DNA of 46,409 bases from a virus. This document shows, piece after piece, positions 1-46,409 of the stretch (position 1 is the first letter of the stretch; every line of letters starts with the position of its first letter). Location of the stretch: IMG/VR virus record IMGVR_UViG_3300046512_000061, positions 1-46,409 of that record, one strand, 5' to 3'. Made by a program: the position numbers and the translations under genes. The notes below the pieces were generated by a model. The model searched no databases. It worked only from the letters and a program-made list of their open reading frames with translations, and had not been told where the DNA came from.

Positions 1-127
1 ATGAAAGAAACGACTCAGATAATGGAAAAGGTGATGAGCAAATGCATATCGATTGGAGCAAGGCGCCGGAAGGGAGTACACATTTCCACCCTGCCAACTA
101 TGGGTACGTAGAGCACTGGGTAAAGAT
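1..127. repeat. Terminal direct repeat, left copy (127 bp)
   Basis: These bases are identical to the last 127 bases of the window. The repeat contains the start of the first gene. An exact overlap of this size is what is left when a circular assembly graph with k-mer size 127 is linearised. It could also reflect true terminal redundancy; the sequence alone cannot separate the two. Confidence 0.97.
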
Positions 128-353: not shown

Positions 354-526
354 GCCTCTTAGCCGAGACCATGGAAACGTTGAAGTACACCGAAGCGCAG
401 AACAAGTTGATCTTGGCCGGCAACCTGAAGAACGAGGTACTGGCCGAACGCTTCGGTAAGAGCATTCGGCAAATTCAGCGCCAACGTGCATTTTTGAAGG
501 GAGTGAAACGCGATGAGCAAATGTGA
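350..526 (+). CDS. Small helix-turn-helix-like protein (58 aa)
   Basis: A 58-residue ORF starting on the ATGA that ends the previous gene. Residues about 28-48 (EVLAERFGKSIRQIQRQRA) have the spacing of a helix-turn-helix, with a basic recognition helix, so a small DNA-binding protein is likely. The stop overlaps the next gene's start region. The target is unknown. Confidence 0.6.
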   Translation: MSLLAETMETLKYTEAQNKLILAGNLKNEVLAERFGKSIRQIQRQRAFLKGVKRDEQM

Positions 527-680
527 AAAATACTGGGTCTTCGGGATGATCCTTATGCTTTGTGTAAAGCATCAAGACGTACCGACGCTTTGGGGATCTC
601 TTTCAAACATTATCTTCTACGTCGTTAGCCTCGGTTTCTCCATCGCTATGGTCTGGTGCGCGATCCGAGGTGAAAAATGA
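513..680 (+). CDS. Small membrane protein (55 aa)
   Basis: The ATG lies inside the preceding gene's 3' end, as is usual in this operon. The protein has a hydrophobic segment at residues about 8-17 and a longer one at about 32-52 (SNIIFYVVSLGFSIAMVW), so one or two membrane passes are expected. The stop TGA overlaps the ATG of the CsrA-like gene. Function unknown. Confidence 0.6.
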   Translation: MSKCEKYWVFGMILMLCVKHQDVPTLWGSLSNIIFYVVSLGFSIAMVWCAIRGEK

Positions 681-967
681 GCAATCTCGTACTAACGCGT
701 AAGGCCGGTGAGTCGGTGCGGTTGATGATTGGCCAGCGGACTGAGTACCTGGAGATTCTTGAAGTGACCGGCGGCTTCTGCAAGGTTCGTTTGCTATCTA
801 ACCTGCACGTTGAACGCGTTCGCTTCCGTGGCGAAATGCAGATCGCAGAAGGCGTCACGGTTACCGTTCTGGACCTCGCAAAAGGCCATGCAAAGCTTGG
901 CTTCGATGTACCGCGCGATGTCCACATCCTGCGTACTGAACTGATAAAGGAGAAGGAAAATGATTGA
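677..967 (+). CDS. csrA: CsrA/RsmA-family RNA-binding regulator with internally duplicated core
   Basis: CsrA proteins bind GGA motifs in mRNA leaders and alter translation. Here residues 4-13 (LVLTRKAGES) match CsrA strand 1 with its conserved L-T-R. Residues 59-89 (ending DVPRDVHILRTEL) match strands 2-5 plus the helix start, including the arginine equivalent to R44 (R86). Canonical CsrA is about 61 aa; this protein is 96. The extra residues 23-54 align with 59-89 (LEILEV/VTVLDL, K36/K73, V45/V82, R51/R86), so the core appears duplicated after a single strand 1. The start is preceded by GAGGTGAA and overlaps the upstream stop. A phage CsrA probably retunes host or phage mRNA translation. 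Confidence 0.85.
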   Translation: MSNLVLTRKAGESVRLMIGQRTEYLEILEVTGGFCKVRLLSNLHVERVRFRGEMQIAEGVTVTVLDLAKGHAKLGFDVPRDVHILRTELIKEKEND

Positions 968-1289
968 AGAATACAAGGCCCTCGCAGCAGAGCTTCACAA
1001 TGTCCACTACGACGCGCCGAACGGCGAGCTGCTGAAACGTGCTCAACGGGCTATCGACGTGCTCAATGCGCCAGGCGTCAACGACTTCAGCAACTACCTA
1101 CATCGGCAGATAGAAACGAAGTTAGCCCGTGCAGAATCTGAAGCCGCTTCAGTTCGTGTTGAGTTGCGCCTTATGCGAGAGCGCTGCGCAGAACTAATGT
1201 CGCAGCACGAACCGCTGAACGGCCTTGCCGTGGATCGTGAACTCGTTCGCCAGGTTCTCCACTACGTGCAATGTGGGAGGCTGAAATGA
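960..1289 (+). CDS. Hypothetical helical protein (109 aa)
   Basis: The start follows AAGGAGAAGG and overlaps the end of the CsrA-like gene. Residues about 45-80 are rich in A, E, R and L (ETKLARAESEAASVRVELRL) and probably form a coiled coil. No enzymatic motif is seen. The stop overlaps the next start as ATGA. Confidence 0.7.
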   Translation: MIEEYKALAAELHNVHYDAPNGELLKRAQRAIDVLNAPGVNDFSNYLHRQIETKLARAESEAASVRVELRLMRERCAELMSQHEPLNGLAVDRELVRQVLHYVQCGRLK

Positions 1290-1519
1290 TCCTTGATAAA
1301 ACGATTGACGAGGCGCTGATCGAGATCATGCGCACCAAGAAAGCCTTGGAAGCGTTGCGCAAGGCGCGTAAAGGCGTAACAGGAACAATGGGCGAAATGC
1401 AGGTCCATGGCGCTTGGGTATACACCGATCAGATCAAGGAGCACGCAGCCGCCAAGCGCGCCAAGCGCGCCACGCTCGACCTGACGCGCAAACTTGCTCA
1501 ACTGAGGGCGGGGCGATGA
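1286..1519 (+). CDS. Hypothetical basic helical protein (77 aa)
   Basis: The ATG at 1286 is chosen over one at 1271 because GGGAGG lies at 1275-1280 with normal spacing and the start overlaps the previous stop. The protein is helical, with lysine/arginine-rich stretches around residues 18-30 and 52-75. No family recognised. Confidence 0.65.
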   Translation: MILDKTIDEALIEIMRTKKALEALRKARKGVTGTMGEMQVHGAWVYTDQIKEHAAAKRAKRATLDLTRKLAQLRAGR

Positions 1520-2900: not shown

Positions 2901-3095
2901 ATGGTAAAAGCAATCGATATGCTTCGCGCTTGGGTAGAACTCGGGGCGTCGCAGGAAGACATGCATACTGGCGATTACGCTGACCGCGTAATTAACTCCT
3001 ACAACAACTGCGAACTGCTTGAAGCGATGGATGATGCTGCCACTTGGGAGCAAAGCCTATCCGACGACGAGCTTCGGGAAAGAGGTCTCCTCTAA
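2901..3095 (+). CDS. Small acidic protein (64 aa)
   Basis: Starts four bases after the previous stop, with GGAGG at 2889-2893. It has many D and E residues, with a C-terminal SLSDDELRERGLL. The stop overlaps the DUF2800 start as TAATG, implying translational coupling. Function unknown. Confidence 0.65.
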   Translation: MVKAIDMLRAWVELGASQEDMHTGDYADRVINSYNNCELLEAMDDAATWEQSLSDDELRERGLL

Positions 3096-4609
3096 TGGGC
3101 GCACATGCACTCTTAAGCCCTAGCGGTATGCCGGCAGCCATTCGCTGCTTGGCTAAGCCGCATCGGGAACGTGGGTTGCCCGACCAGTCGAGCAGCTTTG
3201 CGGACGAAGGCACCGCAGCGCATTTCCTGATGGAACAATGCCTGCTGGAAAACAAGCACGCCAAAGACTTTCAAGGTCTACGCATCCAGGTTAAGGACGG
3301 CGTAACAGAGTTCCACACCTCGGGACAATATCCTGTCGGGCTCGACATGATCGCCCCAATGCAAAAGGCTTTGGATTACGTTCGGGCCGTCGCCGATGGT
3401 GCGACAATCTACACCGAACAGAAGCTGAGCATCGCGCACATTACTGGCGAGCATTGGCACAAAGTTACAGGCGCGGTCTGCTTCCTGACTGACGTAGGAA
3501 ACTTTGTAGATTTCGACACTGGCGAGATTTACACCCAAGACGAAGTAGAACCAGCCACTGGCACTACTGACGTTTGGATCATCAAGGGTAGTGTTGCCCA
3601 CTCGATCGATCTGAAGTGGGGAATGGGCGTCCAGGTCTTCGCCAAGGGAAACGAGCAGCAGGAGATGTACACGGACGCCGGTTTGCAGGAGTTCGACTTC
3701 CTGGGCGAAGTAGAAGAGATACATCTGCACATCCTTCAGCCGCGTTTGCACCACTTTGACGAACACGTCATGTCTCGTTCTGAACTGGATGCGCGTATCG
3801 AACTGATCCGCCAAGCGGCAGAGCGAATCGCGTTCGCCAAAGGCGATGAACTGCCGGCTACGCCGGGCGAGAAGCAGTGCAAGTTCTGTAAGCGCGCAGC
3901 TACTTGCGAAGAACGTACCGATCACACCATGGAGCTAATCGTGGGCGAATTTGTTGACCTGGAAAAAGGGTTCATCAAAGTCGAAATGCCGCAGGCAGAG
4001 AAGCTGTTGGCGCAAGCCTTCGACGTGACGCCAAAAGCGATCACCTTTCAGCACGAGATCGACGACGGTGCGCAGAACCACCAAGCGGCATGCTTCACCG
4101 TCAAAAAGCCGAACATCCGTCCGAGTCTTGAAGCGGCGGAAGCCAAGTTGCCGGACGCATCGGACGAGCGTTTGGCAACGCTGATGGACGCGGCCGACAT
4201 GATCGAAGGCTTTGCCAAAGCGGTACGCGCTGAAGTTGAGCGCCGCCTACTGGCCGGTAAGTTCACCGATGCTCGCTACAAACTGGTCGAAGGTCGCCAG
4301 GGTGCGCGTAGCTGGACCAGCGAGGAGGAAGCCGAAGCCGCGCTGAAGGCGATGCGGTTGAAGGTCGACCAAATGTACGACTTCAAGCTGATCAGCCCTA
4401 CAACGGCTGAGAAGGTCTTGAAGGAGGCCAACCCACGCAAGTGGAACAAGCTGCAGCCATTGATTGGCCGTAGCGATGGTAAGCCATCCGTAGCACCGGC
4501 CAGCGATAATCGCCCCGCTTTGAGCATGGCGATTGCCGAACAGTTCGAAGAGCTGCCGGCGGAAGAACCCCTGGTCGTTGTCGAAGATAATTTCGACGAT
4601 CTTGTGTGA
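3095..4609 (+). CDS. DUF2800 family PD-(D/E)XK nuclease (504 aa)
   Basis: The ATG at 3095 overlaps the previous stop and follows AGAGG; an earlier in-frame ATG at 3044 lies within the preceding gene. N-terminal GTAAHFLMEQCL, a central VAHSIDLKWGMG with the D-x-K nuclease signature, and a Cys cluster (CKFCKRAATC) that may bind metal or an Fe-S centre are typical of DUF2800, which is related to RecB/Cas4-type nucleases. It sits immediately upstream of the DUF2815 ssDNA-binding protein, the usual pairing in phages. Expected to act in recombination or end processing during replication. Confidence 0.85.
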   Translation: MGAHALLSPSGMPAAIRCLAKPHRERGLPDQSSSFADEGTAAHFLMEQCLLENKHAKDFQGLRIQVKDGVTEFHTSGQYPVGLDMIAPMQKALDYVRAVADGATIYTEQKLSIAHITGEHWHKVTGAVCFLTDVGNFVDFDTGEIYTQDEVEPATGTTDVWIIKGSVAHSIDLKWGMGVQVFAKGNEQQEMYTDAGLQEFDFLGEVEEIHLHILQPRLHHFDEHVMSRSELDARIELIRQAAERIAFAKGDELPATPGEKQCKFCKRAATCEERTDHTMELIVGEFVDLEKGFIKVEMPQAEKLLAQAFDVTPKAITFQHEIDDGAQNHQAACFTVKKPNIRPSLEAAEAKLPDASDERLATLMDAADMIEGFAKAVRAEVERRLLAGKFTDARYKLVEGRQGARSWTSEEEAEAALKAMRLKVDQMYDFKLISPTTAEKVLKEANPRKWNKLQPLIGRSDGKPSVAPASDNRPALSMAIAEQFEELPAEEPLVVVEDNFDDLV

Positions 4610-4801: not shown

Positions 4802-5350
4802 ATGAAACATACTTTCCAAAACGCCCGCATTTCCTTCCCGAACATCTTCGAACCGAAGGCTTCTGAAAGCGGTTCGCTGCAGTTCAGCGCGGCTTTCCTG
4901 TTCGACCCTGCGCACCCTGGTATCGCCGGCCTCGATGCGGTGATCGACCAAGTAGGTAAAGCCAAGTGGGGCGATAAGTGGGGCGCGGTCAAGAAGGAAC
5001 TCAAAGCGGGCGACAAGCTGCTGACCCACAACGGCGACAGCAAAGCTTCCCTGGCGGGCTACGAAGGCAACCTTTACTTCAACGCCTACAACACTGTGCG
5101 GCCTACCGTGGTAGACCGCGACCGTAGCCCACTGGTAGCCGCTGACGGCAAACCGTACTCCGGCTCCTACGTTAACGTGATCATCGACGTGTGGGCGCAG
5201 GAGAACAAGTACGGTAAGCGCGTCAACGCCCAGCTTCAAGGCATCCAGTTCGTTAAGGACGGCGAAGCGTTCTCCGGTGGCGGTACCTCGGCAGACGCCA
5301 GCGACTTCGAAGAGATTGCAGACGGCGCTGATGCGGACGACTTGGCGTGA
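4802..5350 (+). CDS. DUF2815 (Enc34-type) single-stranded DNA-binding protein (182 aa)
   Basis: The pattern matches DUF2815: N-terminal NARISFPNIFEPK, then FSAAFLFDP, GNLYFNAYN, YVNVIIDVWAQENKYGKRVNAQL, and an acidic tail (residues about 165-182, ending DGADADDLA). This family has an OB fold like T7 gp2.5, and its acidic C-terminus recruits replication partners. It follows the DUF2800 nuclease and precedes the polymerase, as in other phages with this replication module. GAGG lies nine bases before the ATG. Confidence 0.88.
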   Translation: MKHTFQNARISFPNIFEPKASESGSLQFSAAFLFDPAHPGIAGLDAVIDQVGKAKWGDKWGAVKKELKAGDKLLTHNGDSKASLAGYEGNLYFNAYNTVRPTVVDRDRSPLVAADGKPYSGSYVNVIIDVWAQENKYGKRVNAQLQGIQFVKDGEAFSGGGTSADASDFEEIADGADADDLA

Positions 5351-6197: not shown

Positions 6198-6574
6198 ACC
6201 GCATGTCGCAAGCCCTCGTCGAGGAACGTTGGGGCATTCCGTTCTGGCAGTTACTGGCCGACTTCGCTGATCAAGGCTTACCTCGTAGCACTGCCTGCAA
6301 GGCACTGGGCTACAGCCGTTGCTGGTTCTACCAGGTGTTGCGCAATAATCCGGATAAAGACCCGTTCCCGGATGTGAACATCGTCGCGGCCTATTCACGT
6401 GACACAGGGGAGACCTTGAAGGCCGCAGTTACGCGTATGGTCCAGGCCGGCTACACCGGGCGCCGTATTGCACGAGAAGTTGGGTACACCGACTGGTCCA
6501 GCCTGCGACGTACCCTGGAAGGCAGGGGAATCGATTTTCCCCTGCCGAAGAAACGGATAAGGAGACTCGCTTGA
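6194..6574 (+). CDS. Helix-turn-helix DNA-binding protein (126 aa)
   Basis: GTG at 6194 overlaps the previous stop; ATG at 6203 is the alternative. Two helix-turn-helix-like units are visible: residues about 30-50 (PRSTACKALGYSRCWFYQVL) and about 88-112 (RRIAREVGYTDWSSLRRTL). A basic PKKRIRRLA tail ends the protein. It directly precedes the DNA polymerase with overlapping codons, so a role in replication or its control is likely. Confidence 0.65.
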   Translation: MNRMSQALVEERWGIPFWQLLADFADQGLPRSTACKALGYSRCWFYQVLRNNPDKDPFPDVNIVAAYSRDTGETLKAAVTRMVQAGYTGRRIAREVGYTDWSSLRRTLEGRGIDFPLPKKRIRRLA

Positions 6575-8637
6575 ACCTCGAAAAATGCATTTTCCTCGAC
6601 ACAGAAACCTTCTGCGAAACGCCCATCAACAACGGGACGCACCGTTACGCAGAAGGCGCCGAGATCATCATGTGGCAGTGGGCGGTCGGCGATGGGCCGG
6701 TAGAGATTCGCGATGGGGATGAAGACGTGTCGGATCTCTTAGCGCTACTGGCTGACCCTTCTTACGCGAAAGTGATCCAGAACAGCGCTTTCGATCGCAC
6801 CGTTATGACCCACGTGATCGGCTTTACGATACCAGTGGAAGAGACGTTCGATACGATGGTCTGCGCTATGGCGCATTCATTGCCGGGCGCTTTGGAGAAG
6901 CTCGGCGACATCCTCGGGATCGCGAAGGACAAGGCGAAGGACAAGGCCGGCAAGGCGCTGATCCAACTGTTCTGCAAGCCACGACCAAAGAACCAGATCC
7001 TCCGACGTGCTACTCGTGAAACCCATCCTGTCGAGTGGGAAGCGTTTCGCGAGTATGGGCGTCTCGACATCGAGGCCATGCGTGAGATTTACAAGAAGCT
7101 GCCGCGGTGGAATTACCGGGGCGCTGAAAAAGAGTTGTGGCACCTCGATCAGCGCATTAACGAACGCGGCGTGCTGATGGACTTAGACCTTGCACACGCC
7201 GCTATCCGGGCCTCAGATCGCGCGCAGAAGGAACTGTCGCGTCAGGCTAACGAAATGACGGACGGTGCTGTCAGCAGTGCTAACCAGCGCGACAGAATGC
7301 TCGAGCATATTCTCGAAGCTTATGGCATTGCGTTGAAGGACCTGAAGGGCAGTACCTTAGAAAAAGCCTTGGAAAACGAGGACATGCCGGAAGAGCTCAA
7401 GGATTTGCTACGCGTCCGTCAGCAATCCAGCAAGTCTTCCAACAGCAAGTACAGCCGGGTTATCAACGGCGTGAGTTCTGACGGCCGCCTACGCGGTCTG
7501 CTGGCGTTCTGTGGCGCGTTACGCACGGGACGTTGGGCAGGACGCCTAATTCAGCCGCAGAACCTGCCCAGGGGTACTCTCAGCCCCGAAGGCGTGGACA
7601 ACGCAATCGAAGAACTGCTCCACAACGCCGAGGATCTTATCGGCGGCCCGACGGTTATGGACAAATGCTCCAGCGCTATCCGCGGGGTTTTCATAGCACC
7701 CCCCGGGAAGAAATTCGTCGTGGCCGACTTAGCGGGTATCGAGAACCGGGTATTAGCCTGGCTGGCCGGCGAAGCCTGGAAGCTTGAAGCGTTCCTGGAC
7801 TTCGATCTGCGCGACGGCCACGACATGTACAAACTCGCCTACGCCAAAGCTTTCGGCATCCGTCCGGAGGACGTAGGCAAGCACGAACGTTCGATCGGGA
7901 AAGTTTTGGAACTCATGCTGGGCTATGCGGGAGGTGTAGGGGCATACATCACGGGGGCCTTGACTTACCGCATCGACCTGGAAGACATGGCGGAAAAAGC
8001 TTGGGACGTTATCCCCGTCGCGACTCGCGATGATGCCGCCAGTTTCCTCGAATGGCAACTCGGCCAGGGGAAAAGCCAATACGGTTTGAGTGATCGCGCA
8101 TTCATCGTCTGCGACAGCTTCAAGCGCCTGTGGCGCGAAACTAACCCCGCTATCGCCGCATGGTGGAAAGATCTGGAGGACGTTGTTAGACGTGCGATCA
8201 ACAACCCAGGCCAAACGCTTACCTGCCGTATGCATAAGGTTCGCCGCGACGGCGCGTGGCTTCGAGTGATGCTGCCGTCCGGGCGATACCTGTGCTATCC
8301 GAATCCCCGCGTCGAAGACGATGGCGGTATCACGTTCATGGGCGTCAACCAGTTCACCCGCAAGTGGGAGCGATTGCGCACATACGGGGGCCGGCTGGTG
8401 GAAAATATTTGCCAAGCAGTGGCGCGGGACGTACTCGCGTACTCCCTCCCCTCAATCGAAAAAGCCGGTTACGAGATTGTCCTGACCGTTCACGATGAGA
8501 TTATCAGCGAAGCGCCGGACACCGACGACTACACGCACGAACACCTGGCCGAACTGATGTCCGCTGGTTGCGACTGGACAGAAGGCCTACCGCTCGCCGC
8601 CGCCGGCTTCGAAGCGTATCGCTACCGGAAAGGTTGA
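6571..8637 (+). CDS. Family A DNA polymerase with 3'-5' exonuclease (688 aa)
   Basis: TTG start with AAGGAGA eight bases upstream, overlapping the previous stop. The exonuclease domain has D10-T-E12 (Exo I), NSAFDRT (Exo II) and YGRLD (Exo III), so proofreading appears intact. The polymerase domain has ALRTGRWAG, motif A DLAGIENR (D386), a motif B helix (R-S-I-G-K followed by YAGG) and motif C VHDE near residue 641. No 5'-3' exonuclease domain is present, as in phage polymerases of this type. The stop codon lies inside the -35 of the next promoter. Confidence 0.95.
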   Translation: MNLEKCIFLDTETFCETPINNGTHRYAEGAEIIMWQWAVGDGPVEIRDGDEDVSDLLALLADPSYAKVIQNSAFDRTVMTHVIGFTIPVEETFDTMVCAMAHSLPGALEKLGDILGIAKDKAKDKAGKALIQLFCKPRPKNQILRRATRETHPVEWEAFREYGRLDIEAMREIYKKLPRWNYRGAEKELWHLDQRINERGVLMDLDLAHAAIRASDRAQKELSRQANEMTDGAVSSANQRDRMLEHILEAYGIALKDLKGSTLEKALENEDMPEELKDLLRVRQQSSKSSNSKYSRVINGVSSDGRLRGLLAFCGALRTGRWAGRLIQPQNLPRGTLSPEGVDNAIEELLHNAEDLIGGPTVMDKCSSAIRGVFIAPPGKKFVVADLAGIENRVLAWLAGEAWKLEAFLDFDLRDGHDMYKLAYAKAFGIRPEDVGKHERSIGKVLELMLGYAGGVGAYITGALTYRIDLEDMAEKAWDVIPVATRDDAASFLEWQLGQGKSQYGLSDRAFIVCDSFKRLWRETNPAIAAWWKDLEDVVRRAINNPGQTLTCRMHKVRRDGAWLRVMLPSGRYLCYPNPRVEDDGGITFMGVNQFTRKWERLRTYGGRLVENICQAVARDVLAYSLPSIEKAGYEIVLTVHDEIISEAPDTDDYTHEHLAELMSAGCDWTEGLPLAAAGFEAYRYRKG

Positions 8638-9327: not shown

Positions 9328-9620
9328 TGGCGACTAGGCACGAAGGGCCGATCCCTGAAGGTAAACAGCGCTGCCGTCGCTGTGAAGGTTGGGGCGTAAC
9401 GCACTACAGCGTAGAAGAAATCGGCAAGCCCGTCGGTTGCTCAGATTGCGGGGGTCTTGGGATAACCGACGCCCCCTCAAAGCCAGTATACCCAACTGCG
9501 GATGAGCAGTTTGACGGGTGGTTATCAGACCGTACACACGGCCTCTACACCGACGAAGAGGAAGCCTTAGCGCGTGCTGCATGGAAAGCTGCCCAGGAGC
9601 GTTACGGCGATGGCTATTGA
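9327..9620 (+). CDS. DnaJ-type zinc-finger protein (97 aa)
   Basis: The ATG at 9327 (TGATG overlap) follows AAGGTGG. Residues 17-24 (CRRCEGWG) and about 40-47 (CSDCGGLG) are two CXXCXGXG motifs, which form one zinc site in DnaJ-like proteins. The C-terminal half is helical and acidic. Between the nuclease and helicase genes, so possibly an accessory factor. Confidence 0.65.
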   Translation: MATRHEGPIPEGKQRCRRCEGWGVTHYSVEEIGKPVGCSDCGGLGITDAPSKPVYPTADEQFDGWLSDRTHGLYTDEEEALARAAWKAAQERYGDGY

Positions 9621-11004
9621 TTACAAGCCCCACAAGTACCAAGACCTGATCATGTCGGCGATCCACGCGACCAAGCGTTTGGCTGTGTGGGCCGGAATGG
9701 GTCTTGGAAAGTCTGTCAGTACGGCCACGGCGCTGGAAGACCTCTCGCTTACCGAGGATGTCTACCCGGTTCTTATCGTCGCCCCGTTGCGCGTAGCGCG
9801 CACCACCTGGCCGCAGGAGTACCAGAAGTGGACCCACCTTAAGCATCGCCGAGTCGTTACGATCTGCGGCGCGCTCAAGGAACGCCAAGCCGCACTGCGC
9901 ATGAAGGCTGATGTCTACACGGTAAACTTTGAGCAACTGGAATGGTTGGTGGAGCACTTCGGCGACAAGTGGTCGTTTCGCACAGTGGTAGTCGACGAAG
10001 CGACCAAGCTCAAAGGCTTCCGGCTGCGTCAGGGTACGCGACGTGCCAAAGCACTGGCCCGCGTTGCGCATACCAAGATCAAGCGAATCATTCTGCTGAC
10101 CGGTACGCCGAGTCCTAACGGTCTCCAAGACCTTTGGGGACAGATGTGGTTCGTGGATAAGGGCGATCGCCTTGGCCGCACCTACGATGCCTTCAAACAA
10201 CGCTGGTTCAGGGCTTCGCATACCGGGTTCGGCGTCGAGGCAACCGACCAAGCGCAAGAGCAAATCCAGAAAGCACTAGGCGACGTGTGCATCACGATCG
10301 ACGCGGCGGACTGGTTCGACCTTAAAGAGCCGATCGTGAACGTGATCCGCGTAGAGCTGCCGCCGGCCGCGCGCGTCCTCTACAAGAATATGGAAAAACA
10401 GATGTTCATGGACTTGGAAGGCTCACAGGTCGAAGCGCTGAACGCGGCTGCGAAGACGCAGAAGTGTTTGCAGATTGCCTCGGGCGCGGCTTATGTAGAA
10501 GGCGGGCCGCAGTGGAAAAAGATTCACGACGAGAAGCTGAACGCACTGGAGGAAATTCTAGAGGAAGCCGCCGGTATGCCAGTGTTAGTGGCGTATCACT
10601 TCAAGAGCGATCTGGAACGTCTACTGGCGCGTTTCCCTCAAGGGCGTCACTTGGACAAGAAGCCCGAAACGATCGACGCATGGAACCGCGGTGAAATCCC
10701 GATCATGTTCGCCCACCCGGCCAGTGCGGGTCACGGTCTGAACCTGCAGGACGGAGGCAATATCCTCGTGTTCTTTAGCGTCAACTGGAATTTGGAGGAG
10801 CATCAACAGATTATCGAACGTAACGGCCCAGTGCGCCAGTTACAGGCCGGCCACAACCGCCCCGTGTTCCACCACTTCATCTTGGCTGCCGATACCGTGG
10901 ACGAGCTTGTACTGGAGCGCCTGCAGACCAAACGAGAGATCCAAGACATTCTGTTACGCGCAATGCGTGATAACGGATTCAACCCGGTAGAGGATGCAGC
11001 ATGA
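9610..11004 (+). CDS. SNF2/DEAD-type helicase (464 aa)
   Basis: The ATG at 9610 has AGGAG upstream and overlaps the previous gene. Walker A GMGLGKS is at residues 29-35, followed by LIVAPLRVARTTWPQE (motif Ia), VVDEATKLKG (motif II, DEAT), LLTGTPSPNG (motif III) and a C-terminal RecA-like domain with HPASAGHGLNLQ and EHQQIIERNGPVRQ (motifs V-VI). It lacks extra domains. With VRR-NUC and the polymerase it forms the replication/recombination set. Confidence 0.92.
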   Translation: MAIDYKPHKYQDLIMSAIHATKRLAVWAGMGLGKSVSTATALEDLSLTEDVYPVLIVAPLRVARTTWPQEYQKWTHLKHRRVVTICGALKERQAALRMKADVYTVNFEQLEWLVEHFGDKWSFRTVVVDEATKLKGFRLRQGTRRAKALARVAHTKIKRIILLTGTPSPNGLQDLWGQMWFVDKGDRLGRTYDAFKQRWFRASHTGFGVEATDQAQEQIQKALGDVCITIDAADWFDLKEPIVNVIRVELPPAARVLYKNMEKQMFMDLEGSQVEALNAAAKTQKCLQIASGAAYVEGGPQWKKIHDEKLNALEEILEEAAGMPVLVAYHFKSDLERLLARFPQGRHLDKKPETIDAWNRGEIPIMFAHPASAGHGLNLQDGGNILVFFSVNWNLEEHQQIIERNGPVRQLQAGHNRPVFHHFILAADTVDELVLERLQTKREIQDILLRAMRDNGFNPVEDAA

Positions 11005-26935: not shown

Positions 26936-27574
26936 CTAGCTCACGCGTTTAAAAGCAAATGATGTAATGCCTTCGCGGCCGAGTTCCGTTTCGGCGTGGT
27001 TCACTTCGCGCAATTCGAAACCTTGCCTTTCGCACCATCCGATGAAACCTGGCAACGTGTGGTACCACAAATGCTCGCCCGGCTTGAAGTGCTTGGAGCC
27101 GAGGATATCGCCCACGTCTTGATAGATCGGCATGGAGACGAAAAGCCAATCGGTCACGTTAGCCAAGAGTGCTTCGGGATCCGGGATATGCTCGAGGCTA
27201 TCCCAGCAGGTAATAGCGGGAACCTTTCTATCTTCCGGCGAATGCCATTCGTCCCCCGGCTTTCGCCACCGATTGATAGACTTTAGCCAAGCATTAGCCT
27301 CTTTACTGATGTCATACCCCCAGCCGCCGGATTCTTGGACGAACCGCCCGCCGCCGATACCGATATCACAAACTGTCGACGGATCTGTGTACTTCGATAC
27401 CAGCTCTACACGTGCCTTAGTCAACGCAGCGCCCATGGGCGTCGCATCTAGGCGCTGATAGTTCTCGAAATACTCGCCGCTGTATTCCATAGGCGGCGCG
27501 CTATGCCATCCGATACCCAGTTCAGGACACCACAGGAATCGCCCTTTCAGCCCAGGTGGTAAGCTTTGAGTCAT
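26936..27574 (-). CDS. Class I SAM-dependent methyltransferase-like protein (212 aa)
   Basis: The ATG at 27574 is preferred over GTG at 27595 because AAAAGGA lies just before it. Motif I is VCDIGIGGGRFV (residues 68-79), and the TCWDSLEHIPDPEALL segment matches the acidic loop typical of small-molecule or sugar methyltransferases. It overlaps the glycosyltransferase-like gene upstream, suggesting a common pathway such as decoration of a virion or cell-surface glycan. The substrate is unknown. Confidence 0.75.
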   Translation of the reverse strand: MTQSLPPGLKGRFLWCPELGIGWHSAPPMEYSGEYFENYQRLDATPMGAALTKARVELVSKYTDPSTVCDIGIGGGRFVQESGGWGYDISKEANAWLKSINRWRKPGDEWHSPEDRKVPAITCWDSLEHIPDPEALLANVTDWLFVSMPIYQDVGDILGSKHFKPGEHLWYHTLPGFIGWCERQGFELREVNHAETELGREGITSFAFKRVS

Positions 27575-28355
27575 AATCTGAAATCCTTTTGTCACACGAG
27601 TGAATTTTAAGTCGGCACCGGCAGAAGTTGTCGGGAACCGCGAATGTGATGTTGCTTTGACCTTTTGGCGTGATCAGCTCCGGAGCATTATAGCCGCCTT
27701 GGCCGCCGCAGATAATCCATGCGGGAACCTTAGCGCTTAACGCGGCCGGCACCAACCATCCGATGCCGCCGATCACTGCAGAGGCGTTAGCGACCAGTGC
27801 CAGCAGTTGTTCGACCGCCAGTTCGCCTTTGTGATACTGCACGTCGGCGTAAGGAGCATCACCGACAATCCATTCTTGTCCTTCTTGTAAATCCGCAACA
27901 CTGATTATTTTATACCCGCGTTCGGACGCCTGCATGATCGCTTCTGCGATGTACATCGGCAGAGGGTTCCGGGTATCCGCTCGCCACTCGCTACGCACCG
28001 TAGCAGGACGCACGACTACGTATTTACCCGTTTCAGGCGATGGCGGCAGAGGCGGCAGGTCGAACTCGCCAGGCATTACGCCGAAGCTCGCGATCATGCC
28101 GGGGATAATGCCTTCCGTGCCGTAGCGAATGTGTCTCGCTGGTTGCTTAGCCGGAGGCATTAGCCACGAGGAATGCCGAGCGATGTTCTTCGCTTGGGTA
28201 CGCAGATTGGTTTGCGGTCTAACGCAGTGGACGTGTGGCAAATCGGATACGAGTTCCGGCCAGGGGGTATCGAGGTAGATAGGGCCTGGCATGTTTTTCA
28301 GGAATGCCCGGCTAAACAGGCAATCTCCGAGCCCGCGCATACCGTGGATGATCAT
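27522..28355 (-). CDS. Glycosyltransferase-like protein, GT9/heptosyltransferase fold (277 aa)
   Basis: The N-terminus (RGLGDCLFSRAFLKNMPG) resembles the GDxL loop of heptosyltransferases. A Rossmann-like C-terminal half has LLALVANASAVIGGIGWLVPAAL and VPAWIICGG, where a nucleotide sugar would bind. This is a GT-B type protein. It is coupled (ATGA overlap) to a small gene upstream and overlaps the methyltransferase downstream. Confidence 0.65.
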   Translation of the reverse strand: MIIHGMRGLGDCLFSRAFLKNMPGPIYLDTPWPELVSDLPHVHCVRPQTNLRTQAKNIARHSSWLMPPAKQPARHIRYGTEGIIPGMIASFGVMPGEFDLPPLPPSPETGKYVVVRPATVRSEWRADTRNPLPMYIAEAIMQASERGYKIISVADLQEGQEWIVGDAPYADVQYHKGELAVEQLLALVANASAVIGGIGWLVPAALSAKVPAWIICGGQGGYNAPELITPKGQSNITFAVPDNFCRCRLKIHSCDKRISDYDSKLTTWAERAIPVVS

Positions 28356-28586: not shown

Positions 28587-28662
28587 TGGCGTCGAGGCTA
28601 GGATTCGAACCTAGAACGCACGGCTTTGGAGGCCGGCATGTTGCCAATTACAATACCTGGAC
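28587..28662 (-). tRNA. tRNA-Trp (anticodon CCA)
   Basis: A cloverleaf is readable on the minus strand. The acceptor is GTCCAGG/CCTCGAC with one C-C mismatch, and the D arm is short. The anticodon loop CTCCAAA carries CCA. The T arm is CTAGG-TTCGAAT-CCTAG and the encoded 3' end is CCA. The acceptor mismatch and a weak outermost anticodon-stem pair may lower stability. Confidence 0.82.
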
Positions 28663-28666
28663 AAAA

Positions 28667-28743
28667 TGGAACAGGATTAAGGATTCGAACCTTAGAATGT
28701 TGGGATCAAAACCCAATGCGTTAGACCGCTTCGCCAATCCTGT
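28667..28743 (-). tRNA. tRNA-Gln (anticodon TTG)
   Basis: The acceptor ACAGGAT/ATCCTGT is fully paired. The anticodon arm is TTGGG-TTTTGAT-CCCAA with TTG, the T arm TAAGG-TTCGAAT-CCTTA, and the 3' CCA is encoded. It matches the bacterial tRNA-Gln pattern. Four bases separate it from tRNA-Trp, so they are processed from one precursor. Confidence 0.92.
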
Positions 28744-28941: not shown

Positions 28942-28970
28942 ACTTTAGTCACTCGCATCACAAGTGTCAA
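28942..28970 (-). promoter_or_regulatory. Sigma70-type promoter of the tRNA unit
   Basis: On the minus strand TTGACA (28965-28970), a 17-base spacer, then TAAAGT (28942-28947). The -35 is a perfect consensus. It lies in the last codons of the DUF115-like gene, with the stop codon in the -10. It would transcribe the tRNA genes and end at the terminator near 28550. Confidence 0.65.
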
Positions 28971-29496
28971 CAACCTTTTGCAACTCTTTTTCGAGATACC
29001 CCAACTTGTAGGCAGACAAGGATGTCTCCCTACTACAGTTCACCACCTGATTGCGCTGCGCCAATCTAGCGTGCTGCGCGTTCCACTTCCTGCACAACGC
29101 TTCGTCGGGGTTCTTCGTGTCGCTGTGGTCACCATGCCAGTGCGTACCGCCTTGCACCGTGCAGTCGTACCCAAGAAGCAGGACACGTTCTGCGCCTAGC
29201 TGAAAGGCCAGTTCGATCGCTCTCAAGCCAGAGTTGTATTCACCGTAAGCCGTGTGCAGGTTCAGAGCGTGCTTTGCGGATGCCTGGCGGGTACATGTCC
29301 ATCGTTTCGGTCCTTCCGGCACTTGGCTAACGTTGGCATCCCACCACGCTAGATCACCTGCGTAAAGGTGATCGCACCACGGGGCTAGCTGCCAGGAGTT
29401 GTTCACAGCGATTGTAGGGAGGCCGGACGCGAGGACCAGTTCGCAGTCGTGCGCGTTGAGGCTCGGGCCGGAGGCGATGCAGACGAAGGTTTTCAT
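28945..29496 (-). CDS. DUF115/MptE-like protein, possible glycosyl transfer (183 aa)
   Basis: The N-terminus FVCIASGPSLNAHDCE and TIAVNNSWQLAPWCDHLYAGD fit the DUF115/MptE-like fold used by motility accessory (Maf) and related sugar-transfer proteins. GLRAIELAFQLGAERVLLLGYDC gives the second Rossmann-like half. It is much shorter than bacterial Maf proteins. With the GT9-like and methyltransferase genes nearby, glycan modification is plausible but not shown. Confidence 0.55.
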   Translation of the reverse strand: MKTFVCIASGPSLNAHDCELVLASGLPTIAVNNSWQLAPWCDHLYAGDLAWWDANVSQVPEGPKRWTCTRQASAKHALNLHTAYGEYNSGLRAIELAFQLGAERVLLLGYDCTVQGGTHWHGDHSDTKNPDEALCRKWNAQHARLAQRNQVVNCSRETSLSAYKLGYLEKELQKVVDTCDASD

Positions 29497-46141: not shown

Positions 46142-46393
46142 ATGCTCCTACCACCCACTACAGCACTCGCACCATGGCAGCCCGGGCTTTGGATCACGCA
46201 GACGGGTTACGCGCTAACACCGGCCGACGTAGCCGCCGGTACCAAACAAGGCTCTAAGCGTCGCGCCGACATGTACGACGCGATGAAAGAAACGACTCAG
46301 ATAATGGAAAAGGTGATGAGCAAATGCATATCGATTGGAGCAAGGCGCCGGAAGGGAGTACACATTTCCACCCTGCCAACTATGGGTACGTAG
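46142..46393 (+). CDS. Hypothetical protein crossing the circle junction (83 aa)
   Basis: GAGGG precedes the ATG. The protein continues through the 127-base repeat; on the circle it ends at position 111. The N-terminus is hydrophobic/proline-rich (LLPPTTALAPWQPGLWITQ); the middle is basic (KQGSKRRADMYDAM). Its last 70 bases overlap the gene at 42, so one of the two ends may be mis-called. Confidence 0.55.
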   Translation: MLLPPTTALAPWQPGLWITQTGYALTPADVAAGTKQGSKRRADMYDAMKETTQIMEKVMSKCISIGARRRKGVHISTLPTMGT

Positions 46394-46409
46394 AGCACTG
46401 GGTAAAGAT
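46283..46409. repeat. Terminal direct repeat, right copy (127 bp)
   Basis: Exact copy of bases 1-127. It carries the first 86 bases of the gene that starts at 42, truncated by the window end. See the left copy for interpretation. Confidence 0.97.

Follow-up and report, generated by a model that had tools for sequence, protein, structure and literature searches.

CsrA is understood as a homodimer with two RNA sites, which cooperate on mRNAs and are titrated by small RNAs that carry several GGA motifs. What should be made of a phage gene whose product is related to CsrA and has 96 residues and two predicted cores, instead of the single core and about 60 residues of a canonical CsrA or RsmA chain? 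The original prediction, made from the letters of the DNA, was that of two cores in a single chain, forming a pseudo-dimer or a complex with the CsrA of the host. We think it probable that this protein, referred to as P0001, is a single-chain CsrA pseudo-dimer with one predicted GGA-binding site, produced from an early phage operon.

The gene, its neighbours and its relatives

The window, that is, the whole stretch of DNA that was analysed (46,409 nucleotides), is probably a complete phage genome, as judged from a direct terminal repeat of 127 bases (1-127 and 46283-46409). With this repeat, the genes at the right end of the window would lie upstream of the CsrA-like gene. The latter belongs to a tightly packed series of small genes that leads to the replication region:

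513..680, + strand: 5' neighbour gene, 55 residues, judged by eye to have a possible membrane segment; ends in a stop that overlaps the CsrA-like ATG
677..967, + strand: open reading frame of the predicted two-core CsrA-like protein P0001, 96 residues, ATG at 677, stop ending at 967 (ORF call, Pfam match, more than 20 full-length relatives)
960..1289, + strand: 3' neighbour gene, 109 residues, no Pfam match; its own ATG overlaps the end of the CsrA-like gene
3044-4609: exonuclease, reached by the same run of genes
4802-5350: Gp2.5-like single-strand binding protein, replication region
6571-8637: DNA polymerase, replication region
9574-11004: helicase, replication region

The terminase of the window shares 64% identity with that of Pseudomonas phage vB_PaS_IME307, and the polymerase 57% with those of Bordetella phage BPP-1 and its relatives. 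No near DNA relative of the left half of the window (1-25000) was found among cultured phages.

Elsewhere in the window, adjacent genes for tRNA-Trp (cca) and tRNA-Gln (ttg) are present on the minus strand of the structural region (28587-28743), and the minus-strand open reading frames beside them (27522-28355 and 28945-29496) have, by eye, the look of sugar- or glycan-modifying genes. A small gene whose product ends with DLTRKLA(D/Q)LR is located 3' of the CsrA-like gene in the window (1271-1519) and in several relatives, and directly 5' of it in the contigs L031-L035.

P0001 matches the Pfam CsrA profile (PF02599) with 49.4 bits (cut-off 27, E 4e-13), in two stretches. The strong one aligns residues 54-93 to profile positions 12-51, and the weaker one covers residues 4-36 (15.2 bits, E 0.02, when the N-terminal half is scanned alone). 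All of the 20 virus records searched with the family are matched by this profile, ten of them, including the window, in two stretches. Both the L.LTR motif of beta1 (L4-K9) and the beta5 arginine equivalent to R44 of CsrA (R86) are present. P0001 is a relative of CsrA.

Full-length relatives of P0001 (62-83% identity) number more than 20 in IMG/VR, and the whole chain, including the insert that precedes the C-terminal unit, is kept in more than 20 phage contigs. The codon differences between P0001 and four relatives are mostly synonymous (31-35, against 16-26 nonsynonymous). The number of full-length relatives and this excess of synonymous differences indicate that the gene is real, conserved and under selection. 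In one contig (L021:3001-3260) the CsrA-like frame is apparently shifted and the open frame ends after about 39 residues, from either a sequencing error or a pseudogene.

The proteins with the predicted two-core layout form five groups:

P0001 and close relatives: 96 residues in P0001
L031-L035: 84 residues
L024/L036: 98 residues
Vibrio phages D93, vB_VpP_1 and relatives: 95 residues
Pseudomonas phage Psp6 with L047/L048: 81 residues

A search of cultured phages with P0001 gave no match at E 0.01; the matches, at E 1-2 only, have the same two-core layout. About 16 predicted phage proteins in BFVD have the fold of P0001 (TM 0.6-0.9); one is named Carbon storage regulator and most are unnamed. 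Only ordinary or RsmN-like CsrA were found in GTDB genome contigs. No P0001-type protein was found in 298 genomes of one bacterial family, a search which had no positive control and shows little. A Pseudomonas MAG contig (L026/L060) encodes an RsmN-like CsrA into which about 16 residues are inserted, and an ordinary CsrA is also present in that genome.

Two predicted cores in one chain

The AlphaFold2 model of P0001, built from an alignment of 18 sequences that are fairly similar to each other (pLDDT 83, pTM 0.73), has nine strands: 2-9, 13-18, 21-31, 34-39, 45-49, 53-57, 60-68, 71-78 and 82-85. The model of L032 (84 residues, 35-40% identical to P0001) also has nine strands, in the same order (pLDDT 83, pTM 0.72), the two models being not fully independent, as the alignment used for L032 included members of the first group. 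Residues 20-58, which the original prediction considered decisive, since a disordered or unrelated segment would speak against a duplication, are predicted as confident beta strands. The elements of the predicted chain are the following:

680..703, + strand: beta1 of unit A (residues 2-9, containing LVLTRK), which would form the first half of the RNA site (AlphaFold2, conservation)
713..793, + strand: beta2-beta4 of unit A (residues 13-39), the predicted inserted first core (model, pooled profile)
809..823, + strand: middle strand (residues 45-49, VERVR), in place of beta1 of unit B (model, superposition, strand scores)
833..910, + strand: beta2-beta4 of unit B (residues 53-78) (Pfam, model, superposition, profile)
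911..943, + strand: beta5 of unit B plus the residues after it (79-89, PRDVHILRTEL), which would form the second half of the RNA site (model, conservation)

In the predicted model, the C-terminal unit has the CsrA fold: residues 43-89 superpose on a whole chain of the CsrA family, RsmE 1-47 (47 residues, 1.8 Å), with a modest Z of 3.8. Beta1 and the second core, taken together (1..89), superpose on RsmF (53 residues, 2.3 Å, 36% identity), and RsmN/RsmF is the best match of the model in the PDB according to Foldseek. The model of L032 behaves similarly (37/38..84 on CsrA/RsmA chains, 2.2-2.3 Å; 1..84 on RsmF, 2.4 Å). It is important to note that the Z values to CsrA and RsmF (3.2-5.1) are in the range of common beta arrangements and that unrelated proteins score above them. 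We judged these higher matches (CcsBA, an S-layer domain, viral envelope proteins) to be such common arrangements, and we do not claim the link to CsrA from Z alone.

The alignment to RsmF over residues 1..89 also suits a different reading, in which P0001 is a CsrA- or RsmN-like protein with a beta insertion of 37 residues and no duplicated core; the chains would homodimerise by way of the C-terminal unit, each dimer having two RNA sites, and the insert would be an added interaction surface. That insertions are tolerated in relatives of CsrA is known from RsmN/RsmF (PMC3791407). The RsmN/RsmF of Pseudomonas aeruginosa resembles P0001 in having a long insertion, an altered chain path and no C-terminal helix; RsmN/RsmF itself carries a helix of 16 residues between beta2 and beta3, and is a two-site dimer. 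On the contrary, there is no helix in either of our models, and the insertion of P0001 is all beta and would supply a second core. The absence of a helix from the insert, the recurrence of the strand pattern in two divergent models and the superposition of 43-89 on a whole CsrA-family chain argue against a simple insertion.

The sequence comparisons bear on the same question. When P0001 is taken alone and without its beta1, core A is weak: the alignment to CsrA is marginal (31 of 1000 shuffles are as good, z 2.2). The two halves of the protein have no significant similarity to each other, and a match between them given by hhalign was an artefact of overlapping segments. These two observations speak for an insertion. 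On the contrary, the pooled profile of the five groups aligns residues 19-44 to CsrA 15-37 (beta3-beta4) with a score of 19.0, which is reached by none of 300 column shuffles (7.9 ± 2.0), in the register that continues on from beta1; the C-terminal unit scores 54.9 in this comparison. At this level the duplicated core exceeds chance only with the family-wide evidence, and since the comparison of the halves is not significant, the duplication rests on the likeness of each half to CsrA. With the insert in register with beta3-beta4 of CsrA, we consider the insertion reading rather unlikely.

The nine-strand models and the pooled profile thus speak for two cores, core A being marginal from P0001 alone, and the pseudo-dimer that had been proposed gains support from the two AlphaFold2 models, the structural alignments and the pooled profile. 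The original prediction saw beta2-beta5 of CsrA twice; this is correct for the C-terminal half, whose match is strong (54-93), while the first half corresponds to beta1-beta4.

The two sheets of CsrA/RsmA are beta5A-beta2B-beta3B-beta4B-beta1A and beta5B-beta2A-beta3A-beta4A-beta1B (PMC3791407). Superpositions of the RsmE type and of the RsmF type are as expected for a chain that runs beta1A-beta2A-beta3A-beta4A-beta1B-beta2B-beta3B-beta4B-beta5B, which is the order that the models suggest for P0001, the pairing being deduced from the alignments. The chain would provide beta1-beta4 of unit A, a hairpin and then, directly, beta1-beta5 of unit B. Since beta4A lies next to beta1B in the sheet of CsrA, a fusion through a simple hairpin is feasible. 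The missing element appears to be beta5A, apparently lost, and the C-terminal helix of unit A would be gone too. If the strands are ordered as in the CsrA dimer, the sheet of core B would be completed by the N-terminal beta1, and that of core A by the middle strand together with the C-terminal beta5. Two relatives (L020:3001-3312 and L029:3001-3312) have 8-9 added residues, which fit an elongated tip of the hairpin because they are located exactly between beta4A and the middle strand.

It has also been proposed, in the original prediction, that the protein may pair with host CsrA/RsmA, and such mixed dimers could poison or redirect host regulation. There is a precedent in the plasmid-encoded CsrA homologue RsmQ, which heterodimerises with host Rsm proteins in two-hybrid experiments (PMC9928087). 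In the model of P0001, on the contrary, the partner strands, except one beta5, are already in the same chain, and the fold would need to open. Because the chain itself would supply the swapped partner strands, a heteromer with host CsrA is not expected, and we regard mixed dimers as improbable.

A single conserved, predicted RNA site

In CsrA, each RNA site combines beta1 from one unit (L4, T5, R6) with beta5 from its partner (R44, E46) (PMC4005645, PMC3791407). The counterparts in P0001 are L6, T7 and R8 in the N-terminal beta1 and, in the C-terminal beta5, R86 (bases 932-934, equivalent to R44) and E88 (equivalent to E46). The strands were scored with a profile of 49 ordinary bacterial CsrA sequences (46 genome loci and 3 reference sequences). 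In all five groups, the N-terminal beta1 scores 14-18 bits, which confirms the match to strand 1 of CsrA that had been noticed at the outset, and the C-terminal beta5 scores 7-11 bits.

The middle strand (45-49) lacks the signature of a beta1, for which it scores near shuffle level (p 0.36), and its likeness to beta5 is weak at best (p 0.05). In the structural superposition it sits as beta1 of the second unit, with E46, R47 and V48 positioned where CsrA has L4, T5 and R6; it might be a remnant of beta5A. In every group, each chain has a single intact beta1, at the N-terminus, and a single intact beta5, at the C-terminus. Because the middle strand lacks the key residues and the terminal beta1 and beta5 are conserved, one predicted RNA site is intact and the second is degenerate. 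Two arginines, R51 and R86, had been put forward as equivalents of R44, hence two RNA sites. R86 stands; R51 is ruled out, the middle strand having no clear beta5 signature and superposing as beta1 of unit B, and with one intact site in all five groups the idea of two sites is not supported.

The conservation over the five groups peaks in two places, beta1 at the N-terminus and beta4-beta5 of unit B: L4, L6, R8, L74, F76, P79, I84 and R86 are invariant, and K9, V5, T7, E88 and L89 are 80-90% conserved. It could be argued that P0001 is a degenerate CsrA which has lost RNA binding and is only a protein-binding module, since it has lost its second site and the middle strand is free to vary from group to group. 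This is very improbable in our opinion: no part of the family is better conserved than the residues of the site that is left, and these do not vary over the five divergent groups.

The L-x-F motif (74-76 in P0001), located before the turn from beta4 to beta5, does not vary in any of the two-core proteins of the five groups, and ordinary CsrA mostly have V or I in place of the F. It may be that this motif packs against the gap left by the missing beta5.

Known CsrA proteins and possible function

P0001 shares with CsrA/RsmA/RsmE (PF02599), which are domain-swapped homodimers, the LTR of beta1, the V.I.R of beta5 with the equivalent of R44, and the strand order of the unit. It differs from them by two predicted cores and nine strands per chain, by the lack of one beta5 and of the C-terminal helices, and by a single intact predicted site. 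That phages carry CsrA is already known (PMC7366521, PMC8450108). The phage-borne CsrA/RsmA of F116, phi297, Bcep22-like phages, VvAW1 and others (PMC7366521, PMC8450108) belong to the same family, but those that we examined have about 60-67 residues and one core, unlike P0001. The csrA product of Pseudomonas phage Psp6 (81 residues) and the "carbon storage regulator" of Vibrio phage vB_VpP_1 (95 residues), on the contrary, have the two-core layout of P0001 and its single conserved site. The proteins of Psp6 and of Vibrio phage D93 are only 26-31% identical to P0001, and are annotated as carbon storage regulator or hypothetical. The two-core, one-site layout appears to be new, since no tandem, single-chain, pseudo-dimeric or two-core single-site CsrA was found in the literature, a search of open-licence papers in which absence is weak evidence.

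We propose that P0001 would bind GGA in a monovalent manner. It would be produced early in infection, from an operon with translational coupling, and would bind GGA motifs at ribosome-binding sites or in the Csr/Rsm small RNAs of the host, acting without pairing to host CsrA. An action on host translation is plausible; it is something that we infer, like the strand pairing, the RNA binding, the monovalency and the timing. A broader proposal may hold as well, about which we are more hesitant: the two-core proteins would be a widespread and unrecognised phage class of naturally monovalent, monomeric CsrA, in which gene fusion did away with one beta5 and with the need for a partner; host CsrA could then not join, and two GGA sites could not be bridged.

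Regarding autoregulation, a GGA hairpin in the leader of the gene was rejected: it folds less stably than shuffles (z about +2) and overlaps the end of the upstream coding sequence. In 16 of the 18 aligned relatives (the exceptions being L016 and L020), CGTC or TGTC, then a loop of six bases in which GGA is usually present, and then GACG stand just before the ATG. This inverted repeat lies in the last 20 bases before the ATG in most of the L001-L021 set, over the Shine-Dalgarno site, and one substitution is kept as a wobble pair; it is absent from the window itself.

If the preferred reading is true, a natural single-chain CsrA with one site would show directly what one site can do, and would be a natural case for testing why two are normally required in CsrA. 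Unlike RsmQ of the plasmid, such a protein would escape mixing with host CsrA; it would also point to a way in which phages act on the Csr/Rsm network. This network controls CRISPR-Cas and motility in Serratia, and an action of phage CsrA on host CRISPR-Cas by way of the Rsm pathway has been proposed (PMC8450108). The two-core layout is found again in phages whose hosts are Pseudomonas and Vibrio isolates, which makes it amenable to laboratory tests.
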